A stretch of 64,000 nucleotides of DNA, taken from Christiangramia gaetbulicola (GTDB lineage Bacteria; Bacteroidota; Bacteroidia; Flavobacteriales; Flavobacteriaceae). Position 1 is the stretch's first letter; the number at the start of each line of letters is the position of its first letter. Below, in pieces: positions 57,163 to 64,000 of the stretch. Made by a program: the position numbers and the translations under genes. The stretch spans positions 620,001 through 684,000 of the forward strand of contig NZ_QBKQ01000003.1 of assembly GCF_003054225.1 (NCBI RefSeq), written 5' to 3'. Below the pieces are notes generated by a model. The model saw only the letters and a list, made by a program, of their open reading frames with translations, ran no database searches and had not been told where the DNA came from.

Positions 57163-58436
57163 TGAATACTTTGCTGGAAAAAGACAAAACATATATACCA
57201 AGCCTCGAGGCCGTTAAACAGGCTGCTGAAAGAATTTCCAAAGTTGTTTTAAAAACTCCTTTAGCCGAATCCTTTACTTATAGCAAACGCTTTGAGGCCA
57301 ATGTCATGCTGAAAAGAGAAGACCTGCAACAGGTTAGATCTTATAAAATTCGGGGTGCATATAACAAGATTTCCAGCTTACCGCAGGAGCAATTAAAGAA
57401 AGGAGTGATCTGTGCAAGTGCCGGAAATCACGCCCAGGGAGTTGCTTTTGCCTGCAACAAATTAAAGGTTAAGGGAGTAATTTATATGCCCGGAACTACT
57501 CCGAAACAAAAGGTTGAGCAAACCCAGATGTTTGGAGGAGAATGGGTAGATGTCGTCCTTAAGGGAGATACTTATGATGATTCCTTTAAGAGTGCCATGA
57601 AACATATGGAAGAGCAGGGCCTTGTATTCATTCATCCATTCGATGATGAAAAAGTAATAGAAGGCCAGGCGACCATAGCTTTGGAAATTCTTGAACAGGC
57701 TGATGAGCCTATAGATTATATTTTCGCTCCCCTTGGAGGTGGCGGATTACTTGCCGGGGTTTCTTCTATGTTCAAGGAGTTATCACCTAATACCAAGATC
57801 ATAGGTATAGAACCTCAAGGTGCGCCTTCGATGAAAACTTCCTTGCGGGAAGGTAAGGTAGTGGAATTAGAGAATATTGAGCGGTTTGTAGATGGTGCGT
57901 CTGTTCAGAAAGTTGGTGCCAGGAATTTTGCGATCTGTAAAAAGAATCTTGATGAAATGATCACCGTTCCCGAAGGTAAGATCTGCCAGACCATTCTTGA
58001 TCTCTATAACCAGGATGCGATGGTAGTAGAGCCGGCGGGTGCAATGGCTATTTCGGCATTAGACCTTTATTCTGAAAAAATTAAAGGTAAGAACGTGGTT
58101 TGCATCGTTAGTGGAAGTAATAATGATATCATCAGGATGGCTGAGATCAAGGAAAGAGCCTTGCTATATTCTGGATTGAAGCATTATTTCGTGGTGGTAT
58201 TTCCTCAAAGAGCGGGAGCTTTAAAGGAGTTTGTAGCTAAAGTTCTTGGACCCAATGATGACATCACTCATTTTGAATATTCCAAAAAACACAACAGGTC
58301 TAACGGACCTGCGGTGGTTGGGATCGAGTTAAAAGACCCAAATGACTTTAAACCATTGGTGGATAGGATGAAAAAGAAGAATTTTTATGGAGAGTATTTA
58401 AATGATAATCCAAATTTATTTCAATTTTTGATATAA
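57162..58436 (+). CDS. ilvA: Threonine dehydratase (deaminase)
   Basis: The 424-residue PLP enzyme converts threonine to 2-oxobutyrate, the entry to isoleucine. PLP-binding RSYKIRGAYNKI (Lys), SAGNHAQGVAFA and the glycine loop PLGGGGLLAG are present. The C-terminus carries one ACT-like regulatory domain (HYFVVVFPQRAGALKEFVAKVLG), so the enzyme is probably sensitive to isoleucine. It ends the ilv operon, which makes the operon an isoleucine-valine unit, in accord with the Ile leader. Confidence 0.95.
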   Translation: MNTLLEKDKTYIPSLEAVKQAAERISKVVLKTPLAESFTYSKRFEANVMLKREDLQQVRSYKIRGAYNKISSLPQEQLKKGVICASAGNHAQGVAFACNKLKVKGVIYMPGTTPKQKVEQTQMFGGEWVDVVLKGDTYDDSFKSAMKHMEEQGLVFIHPFDDEKVIEGQATIALEILEQADEPIDYIFAPLGGGGLLAGVSSMFKELSPNTKIIGIEPQGAPSMKTSLREGKVVELENIERFVDGASVQKVGARNFAICKKNLDEMITVPEGKICQTILDLYNQDAMVVEPAGAMAISALDLYSEKIKGKNVVCIVSGSNNDIIRMAEIKERALLYSGLKHYFVVVFPQRAGALKEFVAKVLGPNDDITHFEYSKKHNRSNGPAVVGIELKDPNDFKPLVDRMKKKNFYGEYLNDNPNLFQFLI

Positions 58437-58469
58437 AAAATTCTTTGGGCTAGGCCCTGAGTAACCGAT

Positions 58470-58556
58470 TTACCTCTCCAGAAGGAGAGGTCGAAATTGC
58501 TTTTTGCAATTTCGGGAGAGTGAGGACTTAAAATTTTATTTAAAAATTTTAAGTCC
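58470..58556. repeat. Three consecutive hairpins after ilvA
   Basis: CCTCTCC/GGAGAGG (58473-58479 / 58484-58490), GAAATTGC/GCAATTTC with T5 loop (58493-58513) and GGACTTAAAATTTT/AAAATTTTAAGTCC (58524-58537 / 58543-58556). None has a clean T-tail on the plus strand. They look like a mobile or dispersed palindromic unit inserted between ilvA and the arginine leader and may also end the ilv mRNA. Confidence 0.55.
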
Positions 58557-58565
58557 TGTAAATGC

Positions 58566-58593
58566 TTGTCAATTAAAATTTTGCATACATTTG
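58566..58593 (+). promoter_or_regulatory. Promoter of the arginine-operon leader
   Basis: TTG (58566-58568), 17-nt spacer and TACATTTG (58586-58593) fit the Bacteroidota promoter pattern. Transcription would start at or next to the ATG at 58598, giving a nearly leaderless first mini-ORF. Confidence 0.6.
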
Positions 58594-58597
58594 CATT

Positions 58598-58660
58598 ATG
58601 ATTTCGATCAAACAAATAATATTACCCCGTTTCAATTTCAGGCCCCGCCGCCGCTTCTAG
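58598..58660 (+). CDS. Arg-rich leader peptide 1 (20 aa)
   Basis: ATG to TAG encodes MISIKQIILP followed by RFNFRPRRRF; five of the last ten residues are Arg (codons CGT, AGG, CGC x3), unusual for this AT-rich genome. It begins at the predicted transcription start. The early part (58613-58624) is perfectly complementary to 58687-58698. It is likely a sensor of arginine supply, not a functional protein. Confidence 0.68.
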   Translation: MISIKQIILPRFNFRPRRRF

Positions 58661-58705
58661 GTCGTGCCACTGAAACCCTTTTCCATTAATATTATTTGAT
58701 TTTTT
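58613..58705 (+). terminator. Terminator-like structure in the arginine leader
   Basis: CAAATAATATTA (58613-58624) and TAATATTATTTG (58687-58698) can form 12 perfect pairs, followed by ATTTTTT (58699-58705). Inside, TTTCAG (58636-58641) can pair with CTGAAA (58670-58675), or GTTTCA (58629-58634) with TGAAAC (58671-58676). The stem is AT-only and the loop is large, so its strength as a terminator is uncertain. Confidence 0.45.
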
Positions 58706-58743
58706 CCATTTTGAATTACTTAAACAGCATAGAATACAAACTT

Positions 58744-58818
58744 TATATCAGCACTTTTACTGATATATCTCCTATGCGCCAACGTTTTCCCCGTCGCACG
58801 TAAGTGCGTCTATATATC
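58744..58818 (+). promoter_or_regulatory. Second leader region with competing hairpins
   Basis: TATATCAG/CTGATATA (58744-58751 / 58760-58767) competes with GATATAT/ATATATC (58762-58768 / 58812-58818). The second pairing would enclose the mini-ORF at 58774-58803. A third hairpin CGCAC-GTAA-GTGCG (about 58795-58808) straddles that ORF's stop. This arrangement resembles an attenuator or translation switch; no T-run terminator is seen directly after it. The rest of the gap to 58895 (GGAAC..GTTCC, 58822-58844) is probably the untranslated leader. Confidence 0.45.
58774..58803 (+). CDS. Arg-rich leader mini-ORF 2 (9 aa)
   Basis: ATG to TAA encodes MRQRFPRRT: four Arg in nine residues (CGC, CGT, CGT, CGC). 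It lies 92 bp before the GNAT gene and inside the competing hairpins described above. It is too short to judge alone; two Arg-rich ORFs in one leader before arginine genes is the support. Confidence 0.5.
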   Translation: MRQRFPRRT

Positions 58819-58895
58819 TATGGAACTTAGGTGAGTCCGGTTCCGCTCTCGAAACCCCCAAATCAAAACATTTTTTCAATTTAATTTCTTAGCAG

Positions 58896-59540
58896 ATGAA
58901 AATTATCATTGCTAATAAATCTCATGCTTCTTACGCTGAGATCATTTGTAATACTATCGAAGAGTCGGCAAAGGTCCGTGGGACCGGTATTGCCCGTAGG
59001 ACTCCTGAATACATCATTAATAAGATGGAAAAAGGAAATGCCGTAATCGCTCTTGAAGGAGAACAATTTGCCGGTTTCTGCTATATAGAAACCTGGAGCC
59101 ACGATAAGTATGTGGCTAATTCAGGTCTTATTGTTCATCCCGATTTCAGAAATCATGGACTGGCTAAGGAGATCAAAAAGGTGATCTTTAAGCATTCCAG
59201 AACTAAATATCCTACTGCCAAGATCTTTGGGATCACAACCGGTTTGGCGGTCATGAAGATCAATTATGAATTGGGATATCAGCCGGTTACCTTTTCTGAA
59301 TTAACCGATGATGAGACCTTCTGGAAAGGTTGTCAGGGTTGTAAGAATTATGATATTCTAACAAGGACAGAAAGAAAAATGTGTCTTTGTACAGGGATGT
59401 TATACGATCCGGAAAAGAAAAAAGAGAAAAAGAAAACTCCCGAGAGCATTAGCAAATTCAACGACAAAGCTTTTCAGAGATTAAAACATATCAAACAAAC
59501 CCTTTTCTATAAAAAGGAAAAGGCAGAAAAAGAAAACTGA
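58896..59540 (+). CDS. GNAT acetyltransferase, candidate first enzyme of arginine synthesis
   Basis: The 214-residue cytosolic protein has a GNAT fold: SKVRG-type region (ESAKVRGTGIARRTPEYI), a beta-4 strand AGFCYIETW, and the acetyl-CoA loop HPDFRNHGLAKEIKK. A Cys cluster follows (WKGCQGCKN, CLCTGM), then a basic lysine-rich tail. It heads the arginine genes in this operon, and no separate N-acetylglutamate synthase is seen before argC. It may therefore acylate glutamate (acetyl or succinyl). This is inference from position, as the sequence is not a canonical ArgA. Confidence 0.75.
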   Translation: MKIIIANKSHASYAEIICNTIEESAKVRGTGIARRTPEYIINKMEKGNAVIALEGEQFAGFCYIETWSHDKYVANSGLIVHPDFRNHGLAKEIKKVIFKHSRTKYPTAKIFGITTGLAVMKINYELGYQPVTFSELTDDETFWKGCQGCKNYDILTRTERKMCLCTGMLYDPEKKKEKKKTPESISKFNDKAFQRLKHIKQTLFYKKEKAEKEN

Positions 59541-59746: not shown

Positions 59747-60934
59747 ATGAAAAAAGTAGTAATAGCATACAGCGGAGGATTGGATACCTCTTATTGCGCG
59801 AAATATTTATCTGAAGAAGAAGGATTTGAAGTTCATGCAGTGAGTGTGAATACTGGTGGTTTTTCAGAAGAAGAAATTAAGAAGATTGGCGATAATGCAA
59901 AAAAGATCGGTGCCAGCAGTTATAAGAATATCGATGCCATTTCTTCCTTCTATCAAAAAGTAGTGAAGTATCTCATTTTTGGAAATGTTCTTAAAAATGA
60001 TACTTATCCCCTTTCGGTAAGTGCAGAAAGGATCATCCAGGCGATCGAGATCGTGAACTATGCCAAAAAAGTAGGGGCAAAGTATATCGCTCATGGAAGT
60101 ACCGGAGCCGGAAATGATCAGGTGAGATTCGATATGATCTTTCAGATTATCGCGCCAGGTATTCAGATCATCACTCCAATCAGAGACAAACAGCTTAGCA
60201 GACAGGAAGAGATAGAGTATCTGAAGAGTAAAGGCGTGGAGATGAACTGGGATAAAGCCAAATATTCTGTGAATAAAGGACTTTGGGGCACCAGTGTTGG
60301 AGGGGCAGAAACGCTGACTTCAGAAATGCCGTTGCCGGAGGAAGCTTATCCATCTCAGTTAAAAGATAAAGAACCAAAACAGGTAAAACTTAGTTTTACC
60401 AAAGGAGAACTGACTGCCGTTAATGGTACTGAAAATTCACCTGAAAAGAATATAGAAATTTTAGAAGGAATTGCTTCTAAATATGCTATTGGCAGGGATA
60501 TTCACGTGGGTGATACGATCATTGGGATCAAGGGAAGAGTTGGTTTTGAAGCCGCTGCTGCCTTGATCACGATCAAAGCTCATCATTTGTTAGAGAAACA
60601 TACCTTGAGCAAATGGCAGCTTCAACATAAGGATTATACCTCAAACTGGTATGGTATGCATCTGCACGAAGGATTATATCTGGATCCGGTAATGCGCGAT
60701 TTTGAAGCACAGCTTGAAAGTTCTCAGGCTAAAGTGACCGGTGATGTGTTCGTTACTCTTCATCCTTACAGATTTACTTTGGATGGAATCAAATCTCCGA
60801 ATGATCTTATGAACAGCAGTTTCGGGAATTATGGTGAAGAGAATAAAGCATGGACCGCAGATGATGCTAAAGGATTCATCAAGATACTGTCGAATTCCGG
60901 CAAGATCTATCAACACGTAAATCAGGAATCATGA
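59747..60934 (+). CDS. argG: Argininosuccinate synthase
   Basis: The 395-residue enzyme joins citrulline and aspartate with ATP. The N-terminal PP-loop AYSGGLDTSYCAKYL and the conserved GSTGAGNDQVRFD are visible. LWGTSVGGAETL matches the Bacteroidota-type variant. The ATG at 59747 gives MKKVVIAYSGGLD; an in-frame ATG at 59708 would start inside repeat DNA and was rejected. It overlaps argC by 4 bp (ATGA). Confidence 0.96.
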   Translation: MKKVVIAYSGGLDTSYCAKYLSEEEGFEVHAVSVNTGGFSEEEIKKIGDNAKKIGASSYKNIDAISSFYQKVVKYLIFGNVLKNDTYPLSVSAERIIQAIEIVNYAKKVGAKYIAHGSTGAGNDQVRFDMIFQIIAPGIQIITPIRDKQLSRQEEIEYLKSKGVEMNWDKAKYSVNKGLWGTSVGGAETLTSEMPLPEEAYPSQLKDKEPKQVKLSFTKGELTAVNGTENSPEKNIEILEGIASKYAIGRDIHVGDTIIGIKGRVGFEAAAALITIKAHHLLEKHTLSKWQLQHKDYTSNWYGMHLHEGLYLDPVMRDFEAQLESSQAKVTGDVFVTLHPYRFTLDGIKSPNDLMNSSFGNYGEENKAWTADDAKGFIKILSNSGKIYQHVNQES

Positions 60935-61896
60935 TCGAAGCAGGAATTATAGGAGGCGCAGGATATACCGCAGGAGAATTGATCAGGATCTTAATTAATC
61001 ATCCTGAGGTAAACCTGAACTTTATTTTCAGTACTTCTCAGCCCGGGAAACCGATTCATAGCATTCACCAGGATCTTATTGGGGATACCGAAATTCAGTT
61101 CACCAATAAGATCAATACAGAAGTTGATGTAGTTTTTCTTTGTCTGGGGCATGGTAATTCAAAAAAGTTTCTTGCTGAAAATCAATTTTCAGAAAATACA
61201 AAGATCATTGACCTGAGTACCGATTTCAGACAGAAATCTGATGATCACGCTTTTGTTTATGGCCTTCCGGAATTGAATAAAGCGGAAATTAAGTCAGCAA
61301 ATTTTATTGCGAATCCCGGATGTTTTGCAACAGCGATCACTCTGGCAATTCTTCCTTTGGCTAAAAACGGACTTATTAAAGATGATGTTCATGTAAATGC
61401 AGTTACCGGAGCAACCGGAGCGGGAACTTCACTTTCAGAAACCACTCATTTTTCGTGGAGGGATAATAATTTTTCAGCTTATAAATCATTTGAGCACCAA
61501 CATCTGAACGAGATCGGCCAGAGTTTAAAGCAGCTGCAGTTAGATCATGAAGCAGAGGTATACTTTATTCCTAACAGAGGTAATTTCTCAAGAGGAATTC
61601 ATGCTACGGCTTATACCAGATTTTCAGATGATCTGGATGCAGCAGAAAAATTATATAAAGAGTTTTATGCCAACGCAGCTTTCACCTTTGTAACCGATGA
61701 GGATTTGCATTTGAAACAGATCGTCAATACAAATAAATGCCTGCTAAGATTACAGAAGTTCGGTGATAAATTGCTGGTGACCAGTATAATTGATAATTTG
61801 TTGAAAGGAGCTTCAGGTCAGGCGGTGCAGAATATGAATTTGATGTTCGGCCTGGATGAGAAAATGGGGTTGAATTTAAAAGCGAGTTATTTTTAG
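60931..61896 (+). CDS. argC: N-acyl-gamma-glutamyl-phosphate reductase
   Basis: The 321-residue enzyme reduces N-acetyl- (or, in Bacteroidota, N-succinyl-) glutamyl phosphate. The nucleotide site is GGAGYTAGELIRIL, the catalytic Cys lies in NPGCFATA, and EHQHLNEIGQ and IPNRGNFSRGIHATAY follow. Length matches the short ArgC type. It is translationally coupled to argG. Confidence 0.95.
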   Translation: MIEAGIIGGAGYTAGELIRILINHPEVNLNFIFSTSQPGKPIHSIHQDLIGDTEIQFTNKINTEVDVVFLCLGHGNSKKFLAENQFSENTKIIDLSTDFRQKSDDHAFVYGLPELNKAEIKSANFIANPGCFATAITLAILPLAKNGLIKDDVHVNAVTGATGAGTSLSETTHFSWRDNNFSAYKSFEHQHLNEIGQSLKQLQLDHEAEVYFIPNRGNFSRGIHATAYTRFSDDLDAAEKLYKEFYANAAFTFVTDEDLHLKQIVNTNKCLLRLQKFGDKLLVTSIIDNLLKGASGQAVQNMNLMFGLDEKMGLNLKASYF

Positions 61897-62107: not shown

Positions 62108-62902
62108 ATGAAAATAGGAATTATTGGTGCAGGAAATCTGGGAGTCTCCATTGCGAAAGGACTCATTTTTAGTAATGCCTTTACTACATTGTATCTGAGT
62201 AAACGCAAACTTGATGACATTCAGGAGTTTTCTGAATATTCAAAAGTGACCGTAACTTCAGATAATCTGGAAGTTGTAAAGAATTCAGACATCCTGATCT
62301 TCGCCGTTCAGCCTACTCAACTGGAAAAGATCCTTTACGAGATCAAAGACGAACTCACAGATAAACATGTGTTGATCTCTACCGTTACCGGGTTTAAAAT
62401 TCCGCGGATGGAAAGCATCGTGGGGGAAGATCATTTTATCATTAGGTCGATGCCTAATACCGCGATTGCTGTTGGAAAGTCGATGACCTGTCTATGCAGT
62501 AATGAAAAAGGACAGAAGAGGATCACGATTGCCGAAGCTATTTTCAATCGCTTAGGAAGCAGTATTATCATTCCTGAAAATAAGATGCAGGCTGCCACGG
62601 TGATCTGCGCTAGTGGAGTCGCCTTCTGGATGCGTTTGATACGCGCAACCACTCAGGGAGCCGTACAACTCGGTTTTGATGCAAAAGACGCTCAGGAGCT
62701 CTCTATGCAAACCTGTTTGGGGGCTGCAAGTCTGTTGATCGAATCTGGGAAACATCCTGAAGAGGAGATCGATAAAGTGACTACTCCCAGAGGATGCACC
62801 ATTGAAGGTCTTAATGAAATGGAACATAACGGACTTAGTTCCTCGTTGATCAAAGGAATCCAGGCCTCATTCAAAAAAATTAATAATATTTCAGATCAGT
62901 AA
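62108..62902 (+). CDS. proC: Pyrroline-5-carboxylate reductase
   Basis: The 264-residue enzyme makes proline from pyrroline-5-carboxylate with NAD(P)H. N-terminal IGIIGAGNLGVSIAKGL is the dinucleotide fold, and the C-terminus shows VTTPRGCTIEGLNEMEHNG, the ProC signature. Its presence inside the arginine genes ties proline to glutamate/ornithine chemistry. argD follows after 2 bp. Confidence 0.94.
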   Translation: MKIGIIGAGNLGVSIAKGLIFSNAFTTLYLSKRKLDDIQEFSEYSKVTVTSDNLEVVKNSDILIFAVQPTQLEKILYEIKDELTDKHVLISTVTGFKIPRMESIVGEDHFIIRSMPNTAIAVGKSMTCLCSNEKGQKRITIAEAIFNRLGSSIIIPENKMQAATVICASGVAFWMRLIRATTQGAVQLGFDAKDAQELSMQTCLGAASLLIESGKHPEEEIDKVTTPRGCTIEGLNEMEHNGLSSSLIKGIQASFKKINNISDQ

Positions 62903-62904
62903 TA

Positions 62905-64000
62905 ATGCAATTATTTGATGTTTACCCACTATATGATATTACGCCGGTAAAAGGTGAAGGCTGCTATGTTTTTGACGAATCCGGGAAAAAATACCTGGAT
63001 CTTTATGGTGGGCATGCGGTGATCTCTGTTGGGCATGCACATCCGGAATATGTGAAATCTATTCAGGAACAGGCCGCAAAGCTGGGTTTCTATTCGAATT
63101 CGATCAAAAACCCCCTTCAACAGGAACTTGCAGATAAGCTGGAAAAAGTTTCGGGAGTTAAGGATTATAGTCTCTTTTTGTGCAGTTCAGGAGCAGAAGC
63201 AAATGAAAATGCCTTAAAAGTTGCCTCTTTTGAAACCGGGAAAGACAGGATCATCTATTTTGAAAATGCTTTCCACGGAAGAACCTCAGGGGTAGTTGCC
63301 ATAACCGATAATGAATCTATTAAAGCGCCTTTTAATCTTGGCCATAAAGCTACAAAACTGGCTTTTAATGATACTAAATCTTTGAAAAAGGAGATCGAAA
63401 AAGGTGATGTGGCCGCGGTCATTTTTGAAATCATTCAGGGAGTTGGAGGATTGGATGAAGCTGAATCTGAATTCTATAAATCTGCCGCTGAATTATGTAA
63501 AGAGAATCAGGTAATGCTCATTGCAGATGAGGTACAATCTGGTTACGGAAGAACTGGCGATTTTTTCGCATTTCAGAAACATGGCATCAGGCCTGATATT
63601 ATCACTATGGCTAAAGGAATGGGCAACGGATTTCCGATTGGCGGGATCCTGACCGATAATAATATTCAGCCTAAATACGGAATGCTGGGAACCACTTTTG
63701 GTGGAAACCACCTGGCCTGTGCCGCAGGAATTTCTGTATTGGATATAATTAAGGAGGAAAATCTAATGAAAAACGCTGCTGAGGTTTCCAAATTTGTAAA
63801 GGCAGAAGCTGTTAAAATTCCGGAGATCAAAAAGATCAAGGGAAGAGGCTTGATGATTGGATTGGAATTCGATTTTGAGATCGCAGCCCTCAGGAAAGAA
63901 CTTTTATTTGAACACCAGATTTTTACCGGGGCATCTTCTAATAAAAAGTTGCTGCGTATCCTGCCACCATTGAATATTAAAAAAGAACATTTTGAAAGTT
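62905..64000 (+). CDS. argD: N-acyl-ornithine aminotransferase, 5' part
   Basis: The frame is open to the right edge (365 codons visible) and the C-terminus lies outside. It is a class III PLP aminotransferase: YGGHAVISVGHAHPEYV, CSSGAEANENALK, IYFENAFHGRTSG, LIADEVQSGYGRTG and TMAKGMGNGFPIGG with the PLP Lys. This matches acetyl/succinyl-ornithine transaminase. It begins 2 bp after proC, so the operon continues. Confidence 0.9.
   Translation, partial: MQLFDVYPLYDITPVKGEGCYVFDESGKKYLDLYGGHAVISVGHAHPEYVKSIQEQAAKLGFYSNSIKNPLQQELADKLEKVSGVKDYSLFLCSSGAEANENALKVASFETGKDRIIYFENAFHGRTSGVVAITDNESIKAPFNLGHKATKLAFNDTKSLKKEIEKGDVAAVIFEIIQGVGGLDEAESEFYKSAAELCKENQVMLIADEVQSGYGRTGDFFAFQKHGIRPDIITMAKGMGNGFPIGGILTDNNIQPKYGMLGTTFGGNHLACAAGISVLDIIKEENLMKNAAEVSKFVKAEAVKIPEIKKIKGRGLMIGLEFDFEIAALRKELLFEHQIFTGASSNKKLLRILPPLNIKKEHFES

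Follow-up and report, generated by a model that had tools for sequence, protein, structure and literature searches.

A probable two-stage leader-peptide sensor of charged tRNA-Arg upstream of the GNAT-argG-argC operon of Christiangramia gaetbulicola and other Flavobacteriaceae

The trp, his, leu and ilv operons are controlled by ribosome-mediated attenuators, and the Bacteroid-trp motif is linked to a trp leader. The arginine leader analyzed here resembles the trp, his, leu and ilv attenuators in that a short ORF with codons for the end product is interwoven with hairpins before the operon, but it differs from them in the amino acid concerned, in having two serial ORFs, in lacking a general intrinsic terminator, in the presence of a further, conserved hairpin (P2) and in the bacterial family. 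Several related elements are described in the papers cited below, from which we draw in excerpt. Flavobacterium psychrophilum has been reported to show strong indications of attenuation by leader peptides upstream of operons for amino acids (PMC9723704). These leaders share the bacterial family and the general idea with the arginine leader; in the excerpts they precede pheA, hisG and others, and argG is not among the genes named. In Salmonella, orf34 upstream of speF contains consecutive Arg codons, and how fast it is translated determines the folding of the RNA, termination by Rho and decay through RNase G (PMC6386406). Like the arginine leader it is an upstream ORF with Arg codons, but it is a single ORF, concerns putrescine synthesis and belongs to Enterobacteria. 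An upstream ORF with Arg codons also acts in the case of rbfL of Staphylococcus aureus (PMC13009471). Actinobacteria have a LEU element and Cys leader peptides that lack a conserved terminator, with Rho as a suggested factor (PMC1262725); these combine a leader peptide with RNA structure and no clear terminator, as the arginine leader does, and differ from it in amino acid, phylum and structure. The Bacteroid-trp motif (RF01692) is a Bacteroidetes motif named for trp (PMC2864571), and the arginine leader is distinct from it in giving no Rfam match. Among the matches listed in a search of the main texts of the open-access literature no arginine leader of Bacteroidota was found, and the excerpts of PMC2864571, PMC7366714, PMC2965389 and PMC8632094 name none.

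The window, i.e. the whole 64,000-nt stretch of C. gaetbulicola DNA that was analyzed, contains the leader in front of a gene encoding a GNAT-family acetyltransferase (58896-59540; Pfam PF00583 above cut-off). This first gene is followed by argG, encoding argininosuccinate synthase (59747-60934; Pfam domains above and NCBIfam argG models below their cut-offs, ATG 59747 being chosen over 59708), argC (60931-61896; TIGR01850 above cut-off) and proC (62108-62902; TIGR00112 above cut-off). The Pfam and NCBIfam profiles hence bear out the gene order GNAT, argG, argC, proC proposed in the first-pass annotation, a reading of the letters alone, and an open frame starting at 62905, which is cut by the end of the window, is its candidate argD. 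These genes and the leader elements given below lie on the forward (+) strand. The GNAT protein contains a Cys-x2-Cys and a Cys-x-Cys motif (GCQGC...CLC), perhaps a zinc site, and has a Lys-rich tail. Relatives of the GNAT gene were retrieved by a protein search at 80 loci, with 69 to 98% identity; these loci belong to Flavobacteriaceae and some bins, Christiangramia being closest.

The leader starts behind a predicted promoter (58566-58593), composed of TTG at 58566-58568, a 17-nt spacer and TACATTTG at 58586-58593, in agreement with the Bacteroidota type of promoter. It is followed by ORF1 (58598-58660; 20 codons, MISIKQIILPRFNFRPRRRF); direct reading of the sequence confirmed the promoter and the 20-codon ORF as first annotated. 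Counterparts of ORF1, filtered for a length of 8 to 35 aa and at least two Arg, were present in 42 sequences including the window; this set does not contain the false pick L045, and it is smaller than the set of 49 used for folding (see below) because the search for each ORF ended with the first start codon encountered. A promoter-like box, for which several spellings were allowed, ends 4 nt 5' of the ORF1 start codon in 35 of the 42 sequences, so that translation of ORF1 probably begins at or close to the 5' end of the transcript. Two features lie directly upstream of the promoter. One is a perfect 15-bp hairpin (AGGACTTAAAATTTT/AAAATTTTAAGTCCT, 58523-58557), which perhaps marks where the upstream ilv operon ends. 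The other is a match to the Rfam family whalefall-1 at 58470-58527 (+) with 38.6 bits (cut-off 37). A second match, below cut-off, is present in the C. gaetbulicola genome at G000:C1:1409791, and the family may here represent an intergenic repeat; in the excerpts of PMC2864571 its authors know it from environmental sequences only.

The first-pass annotation had emphasized a perfect 12-bp complementarity before a T-run, and this is indeed present. The 5' arm of the stem, S1, occupies 58613-58624 within codons 6 to 9 of ORF1, and its perfectly complementary 3' arm (58687-58698) is followed by an A and by TTTTTT at 58700-58705. The stretch from 58598 to 58702 folds with -20.7 kcal/mol (z -3.5), a value reached by 1 of 200 shuffled sequences. 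In relatives, too, the first codons of ORF1 pair with a segment 3' of the ORF1 stop: for 49 sequences, the false pick L045 among them, the mean z was -3.3, and in 39 at most 10 of 200 shuffles were as good. When the arms were swapped among lineages (18 chosen, of which one gave no ORF1), own arms paired with a mean of -16.7 kcal/mol versus -10.7 for crossed arms, and none of 20000 permutations was as good, the own arms ranking best in only 7 of the 17 lineages.

These data bear on the possibility that the leader is a classical attenuator, in which S1 would be an intrinsic terminator under the control of ORF1 alone, and ORF2, P1 and P2 (described below) a lesser second copy. The 12-bp stem followed by six T in the window fits this idea, and so does a weak P1-like match within the ORF1 stretch of one relative (L035; E 0.32). 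At least five consecutive T are found in the 24 nt before the ORF2 start in 21 of the 36 sequences with tandem ORFs, but the T-run is missing in the other 15 and is thus not a shared feature of tandem leaders. In addition, S1 is AT-rich with a gap of 62 nt between its arms, a pattern scan of positions 58400-58950 detected no ordinary terminator, and P1-P2, the best conserved part, is present without ORF1 in 21 leaders. We therefore regard a classical attenuator as unlikely, while intrinsic termination at S1 may act in some lineages, that of C. gaetbulicola among them. Inspection of the leader by eye revealed no antiterminator.

The Arg codons of ORF1 (58628-58654) are CGT at 58628, AGG at 58640 and CGC at 58646, 58649 and 58652; over the ORF1 set CGY accounts for 131 of 189 Arg codons, which is less uniform than in ORF2. 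It had been raised as a puzzle that ribosomes stalled on these codons would not obviously block the 12-bp stem. A ribosome covers about 15 nt on each side of its A site. With CGT 58628-58630 in the A site it would cover approximately 58611-58641, so that no part of the S1 5' arm would be left free. The puzzle would thereby be resolved for the first Arg codon, but not for the later cluster (58640-58654), where pausing leaves the arm largely free.

The second ORF had been annotated as nine codons long (MRQRFPRRT), starting at an ATG at 58774, 113 nt after the ORF1 stop. This ATG lies in frame inside a longer ORF of 30 codons that starts with TTG (ORF2, 58711-58803; LNYLNSIEYKLYISTFTDISPMRQRFPRRT; stop TAA at 58801-58803). 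Only the 36 of the 42 sequences with a start between -205 and -175 entered the count, and at this kept position the start codon was TTG in 32, ATG in 3 and GTG in 1. Since the position is kept in the tandem relatives, ORF2 most likely spans 58711-58803; the presence of a second Arg-rich ORF stands, and its length of nine codons probably does not.

Short Arg-rich ORFs are found upstream of the GNAT gene in most relatives. Over the window and 77 loci (78 sequences), the last 12 codons of ORF2 contain on average 4.42 Arg (lowest 1), versus 1.33 and 0.27 in the other two frames, the ORF2 frame having been selected as the Arg-richest near P1 and being to that extent biased towards Arg. These codons are nearly always CGY (337 of 345), whereas CGY makes up 176 of 628 Arg codons in the accompanying GNAT genes. 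A short ORF with Arg codons in frame and a kept start codon, as expected of a leader-peptide attenuator, thus appears to be present. In a second type of leader, named after Maribacter and represented by 21 loci, ORF1 is absent and the promoter directly precedes ORF2. These 21 single-type loci largely share the tail R-[SP]-F-x-P-x-R-R-R-P-stop (Phe in 21, encoded by TTT in 13 and TTC in 8; position -6 is Pro in 17 and position -10 is Arg in 16), and third codon positions vary.

A fungal precedent exists in the arginine attenuator peptide, whose nascent chain senses free arginine. That the nascent chain of ORF2 would likewise sense free arginine rather than charged tRNA is in line with the tail kept in most of the single-type loci, but other lineages have other tails (RRFPRRT, FVRV), 37 of the 78 sequences ending in Pro, and the preference for CGY suggests that a particular tRNA is involved. 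Nascent-chain sensing is accordingly very improbable in our view. ORF2 also contains a hairpin, P0 (58727-58777), which is formed by TATATCAG (58744-58751) with CTGATATA (58760-58767) and an outer pairing of GCATAG (58727-58732) with CTATGC (58772-58777); its fold has a z of -7.1 (200 shuffles).

The further hairpins reported around the second ORF are real, and two of them, P1 and P2 (together 58795-58844), rather than the 12-bp stem, constitute the best conserved part of the leader. P1 (58795-58808; CGCAC-GUAA-GUGCG; z -3.9, 200 shuffles) holds the ORF2 stop codon in its loop, both in the window and in the types ending in RRP; in relatives from Salegentibacter, Gillisia and Salinimicrobium the ORF2 frame extends a few codons past this loop. 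Other forms of P1 include CGCCC-GUAA-GGGUG. P2 (58822-58844; GGAACU-UA-GG-UGAGU-CC-GGUUCC, or GGAAAU-A-GG-UGAGU-CC-AUUUCC in other loci) has a near-invariant loop, AGGUGAGUCC in the window, and by itself folds with a z of -1.6 (16 of 200 shuffles as good). The loop motif AGGTGNGTC was found within 120 nt before the GNAT gene in 77 of the 80 loci; the other three (L021, L075 and L078) are absent from alignments A1 and A2 and from the ORF2 counts. Exactly one site for the 11-nt P2 loop motif is present in the C. gaetbulicola genome.

Pairing of both hairpins was analyzed in alignment A3, which has 75 distinct rows, counting the window and the weak second match in L035, and which was fitted to a covariance model and so leans towards it. 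Here 96.4% of the P1/P2 cells were paired versus 89.8% in shuffles, and 51 cells were changed on both sides versus 17.8. Sliding the partner by 1 to 3 columns lowered pairing to 28-55%. Further pair types did not exceed the shuffles (11 versus 12.6). The two-sided changes came from one of the five pairs of P1 and from five of the eight pairs of P2. RNAalifold, applied to the MAFFT alignment A1 (63 rows; A2 has 37; both are drawn from the 77 loop-motif loci), recovered the cores of both hairpins with three pairs of P1 and six of P2, and five of these nine pairs showed two-sided changes. Hairpins over the regulatory codons that are kept by covariation, which would be expected of a leader-peptide attenuator, are thus found, with one covarying pair in P1 and five in P2. 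The alignment of relatives' upstream regions, which had been suggested as a check, hence revealed covarying stems and Arg codons kept in frame.

Several possible roles of P2 were considered and rejected. P2 is unlikely to be a general intrinsic terminator, since a run of at least five T directly 3' of it was found in 2 of 77 loci only (L048 and L054). In 53 of the 77 loci such a run is found anywhere in the AT-rich stretch that separates P2 from the gene, and a weak terminator may exist there in some lineages. The P2 loop is not likely to pair with GNAT codons, because the one fit, GGACTC at about 59001 with GAGUCC, is by eye not kept in relatives. A trans-encoded antisense or repeat of the loop is likewise rejected, since sites with at most one mismatch numbered 25 genome-wide versus 30 for a reversed control. 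Frameshifting from ORF2 to a stop in P2 does not agree with the distance between the ORF2 stop and P2, which takes many values with no fixed modulo 3, and docking of a GNRA loop of P1 on P2 does not agree with P1 loops that also read GUUU, CUUG and CCCG. A further candidate pairing would be that of AGGUG in the P2 loop with CACCU at the 16S 3' end. No alternative helix excluding P2 was found by eye. The region from P2 to the gene contains 5.9% G and 18.9% C in the 77 loci, a G-poor composition that might suit Rho.

The range of the leader was determined with a covariance model of P1-P2, R1, which was built from 37 rows of the loop-motif loci. R1 matched 78 of the 80 loci, the 37 used to build it included, and the window with 80.7 bits. 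L021 matches although its loop is gone, and L075 and L078, both Lutibacter, do not match; the weak second match in L035 is the one mentioned above, E-values of R1 being rough. Scans of more than 40 genomes used stricter filters, by which weak matches are lost. Under these conditions R1 was detected in 154 of 249 Flavobacteriaceae genomes, with one match per genome among the matches listed. No match outside this family was obtained in a class sample (4 of 295) or an order sample (13 of 196), all matching genomes being Flavobacteriaceae. The GNAT gene is present in 168 of the 249 family genomes, of which 152 also have R1 and 16 the gene only, and R1 occurs in 2 of the 81 genomes without the gene. 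In all 21 genomes compared, which head the matches listed, R1 and the GNAT gene share a strand, R1 being located no more than 100 nt 5' of the gene.

Inspection of seven of the 16 gene-only genomes revealed divergent P2-like loops by eye in three (L143, L147 and L148) that R1 does not match, an ORF1-type leader in two (L142 and L144), and an Arg-rich ORF with AGG, CGA or AGA codons in two (L145 and L146). In one genus, g2, perhaps Flavobacterium, the GNAT gene was present in 12 of 12 genomes and R1 matched none of them. The pattern for an S1-type ORF with two or three Arg codons recognized 6 of 10 g2 loci and missed 4, the fit of the stem was modest, being reached by 3 to 49 of 200 shuffles, and no S1-type ORF was seen by eye in L160 and L161. 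Six g2 loci (L151, L153, L154, L156, L157 and L159) carry, upstream of the GNAT gene, a similar short ORF with CGG Arg codons (e.g. MNKTSLHITSLSRTNRPTTSPEVRML) behind a promoter-like box.

The distance between P2 and the GNAT start is 60 to 73 nt in 77 loci. This spacing would be in agreement with translational control, in which folding of the leader hides or exposes the start of the first gene, and the rbfL leader peptide of S. aureus, in the excerpts, acts on the start of the next gene (PMC13009471). Several observations argue against it. In the two genomes that have the leader but no GNAT gene (G378 and G444), argG and argC follow a different first gene, located 117 and 226 nt after P2. The gap between the end of R1 and the gene is also wider in G318, G323 and G362 (91-97 nt) and in G355 (about 240 nt) than the usual 47 nt or so, and the sole fit of the P2 loop to GNAT codons is not kept (see above). 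Translational control is therefore quite improbable. Given the changed first gene and the varied spacing, the leader seems to be tied to the operon rather than to the protein encoded first or to where that gene begins, and its output is more likely to be transcription or the stability of the RNA than initiation at the first gene. In the two leader-only genomes, the gene that separates the leader from argG (L140:654-1238 and L141:755-1348) was not matched by the GNAT protein of the window; in Pfam one of the two proteins belongs to the GNAT family and the other has no match at 0.001. The gene is a candidate case of non-orthologous displacement in arginine synthesis.

P2 could also be the site of a trans-acting RNA-binding factor to which the leader peptides tune access, the special case being autogenous binding of the GNAT protein. 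A loop that is near-invariant while its stem changes is the mark of a recognized loop, the invariance being measured on loci aligned on the loop motif itself (77 of 80). Against this possibility, there is no candidate factor. Autoregulation by the GNAT protein is contradicted by the two genomes that have P2 but not the protein, as well as by the two Lutibacter loci, where the protein occurs and P2 does not. We consider a trans-acting factor of this kind rather improbable.

A match to the arginine repressor ArgR (PF01316) was obtained neither in the C. gaetbulicola genome nor, apart from one marginal case, among 249 family genomes; the same search matched 9 of 14 control genomes, a Bacteroides included. 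ArgR passes the cut-off in only 12 of 295 genomes of the class; its absence is thus common there and does not by itself argue for its replacement by the leader. In a search with 4227 Rfam families over the window and 12 relatives no family exceeded its gathering score at the leader, weaker matches staying below the family scores. The matches above threshold in this set were whalefall-1 (see above) and Flavo-1 in L061, the latter after the start of the genes.

As the layout is kept in most of the sampled family genomes and ArgR is missing, arginine is probably sensed by a translating ribosome. The reading that we favor, and consider probable, is that the 5' leader of GNAT-argG-argC senses charged tRNA-Arg in two stages by means of leader peptides. 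Control by Arg-tRNA supply, as first proposed, thereby gains comparative support from the Arg codons, the stems and the position before the operon; speaking against that proposal, the T-run is found in only 21 of 36 tandem leaders, and the main conserved element is P1-P2 rather than the 12-bp stem. Ribosome stalling, the direction of the response and an output at the level of transcription or RNA stability are what we infer from the sequences compared. In the first stage, ORF1, being nearly leaderless, would be translated as soon as it is transcribed. With sufficient Arg-tRNA the ribosome would leave ORF1, S1 would close and read-through into the operon would decrease, in C. gaetbulicola perhaps via the T-run. 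When Arg-tRNA is short, the ribosome would pause at the first CGU of ORF1 and occupy the 5' arm, so that S1 stays open. In the second stage ORF2, which starts 12 nt after S1, would repeat the test: a ribosome pausing on its CGY codons would hold P1 open, and one that finishes ORF2 would allow P1 to form beside P2. P2 with a formed P1 would then, directly or via a bound factor, lower transcription or the survival of the RNA. The Maribacter type would possess the second stage alone, right behind the promoter. More tentatively, and with odds that we put clearly below even, P2 may be the first of a group of undescribed RNA output elements of Bacteroidota, a hairpin with a GG-UGNGY-CC loop that is recognized by RNA polymerase, by Rho or by some other factor, is armed or disarmed by the ribosome at the adjacent CGY codons and does the work of ArgR in Flavobacteriaceae.

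If the two-stage sensor is correct, it would explain how arginine synthesis is controlled without ArgR in a large bacterial family, and a biosynthetic arginine operon would join those that are sensed by leader peptides. The near-invariant P2 hairpin, of which the C. gaetbulicola genome has a single copy, offers a concrete target. Ribosomes of Bacteroidota mostly initiate without Shine-Dalgarno pairing, and the arginine leader would provide a test case for the crosstalk between translation and transcription in this phylum.
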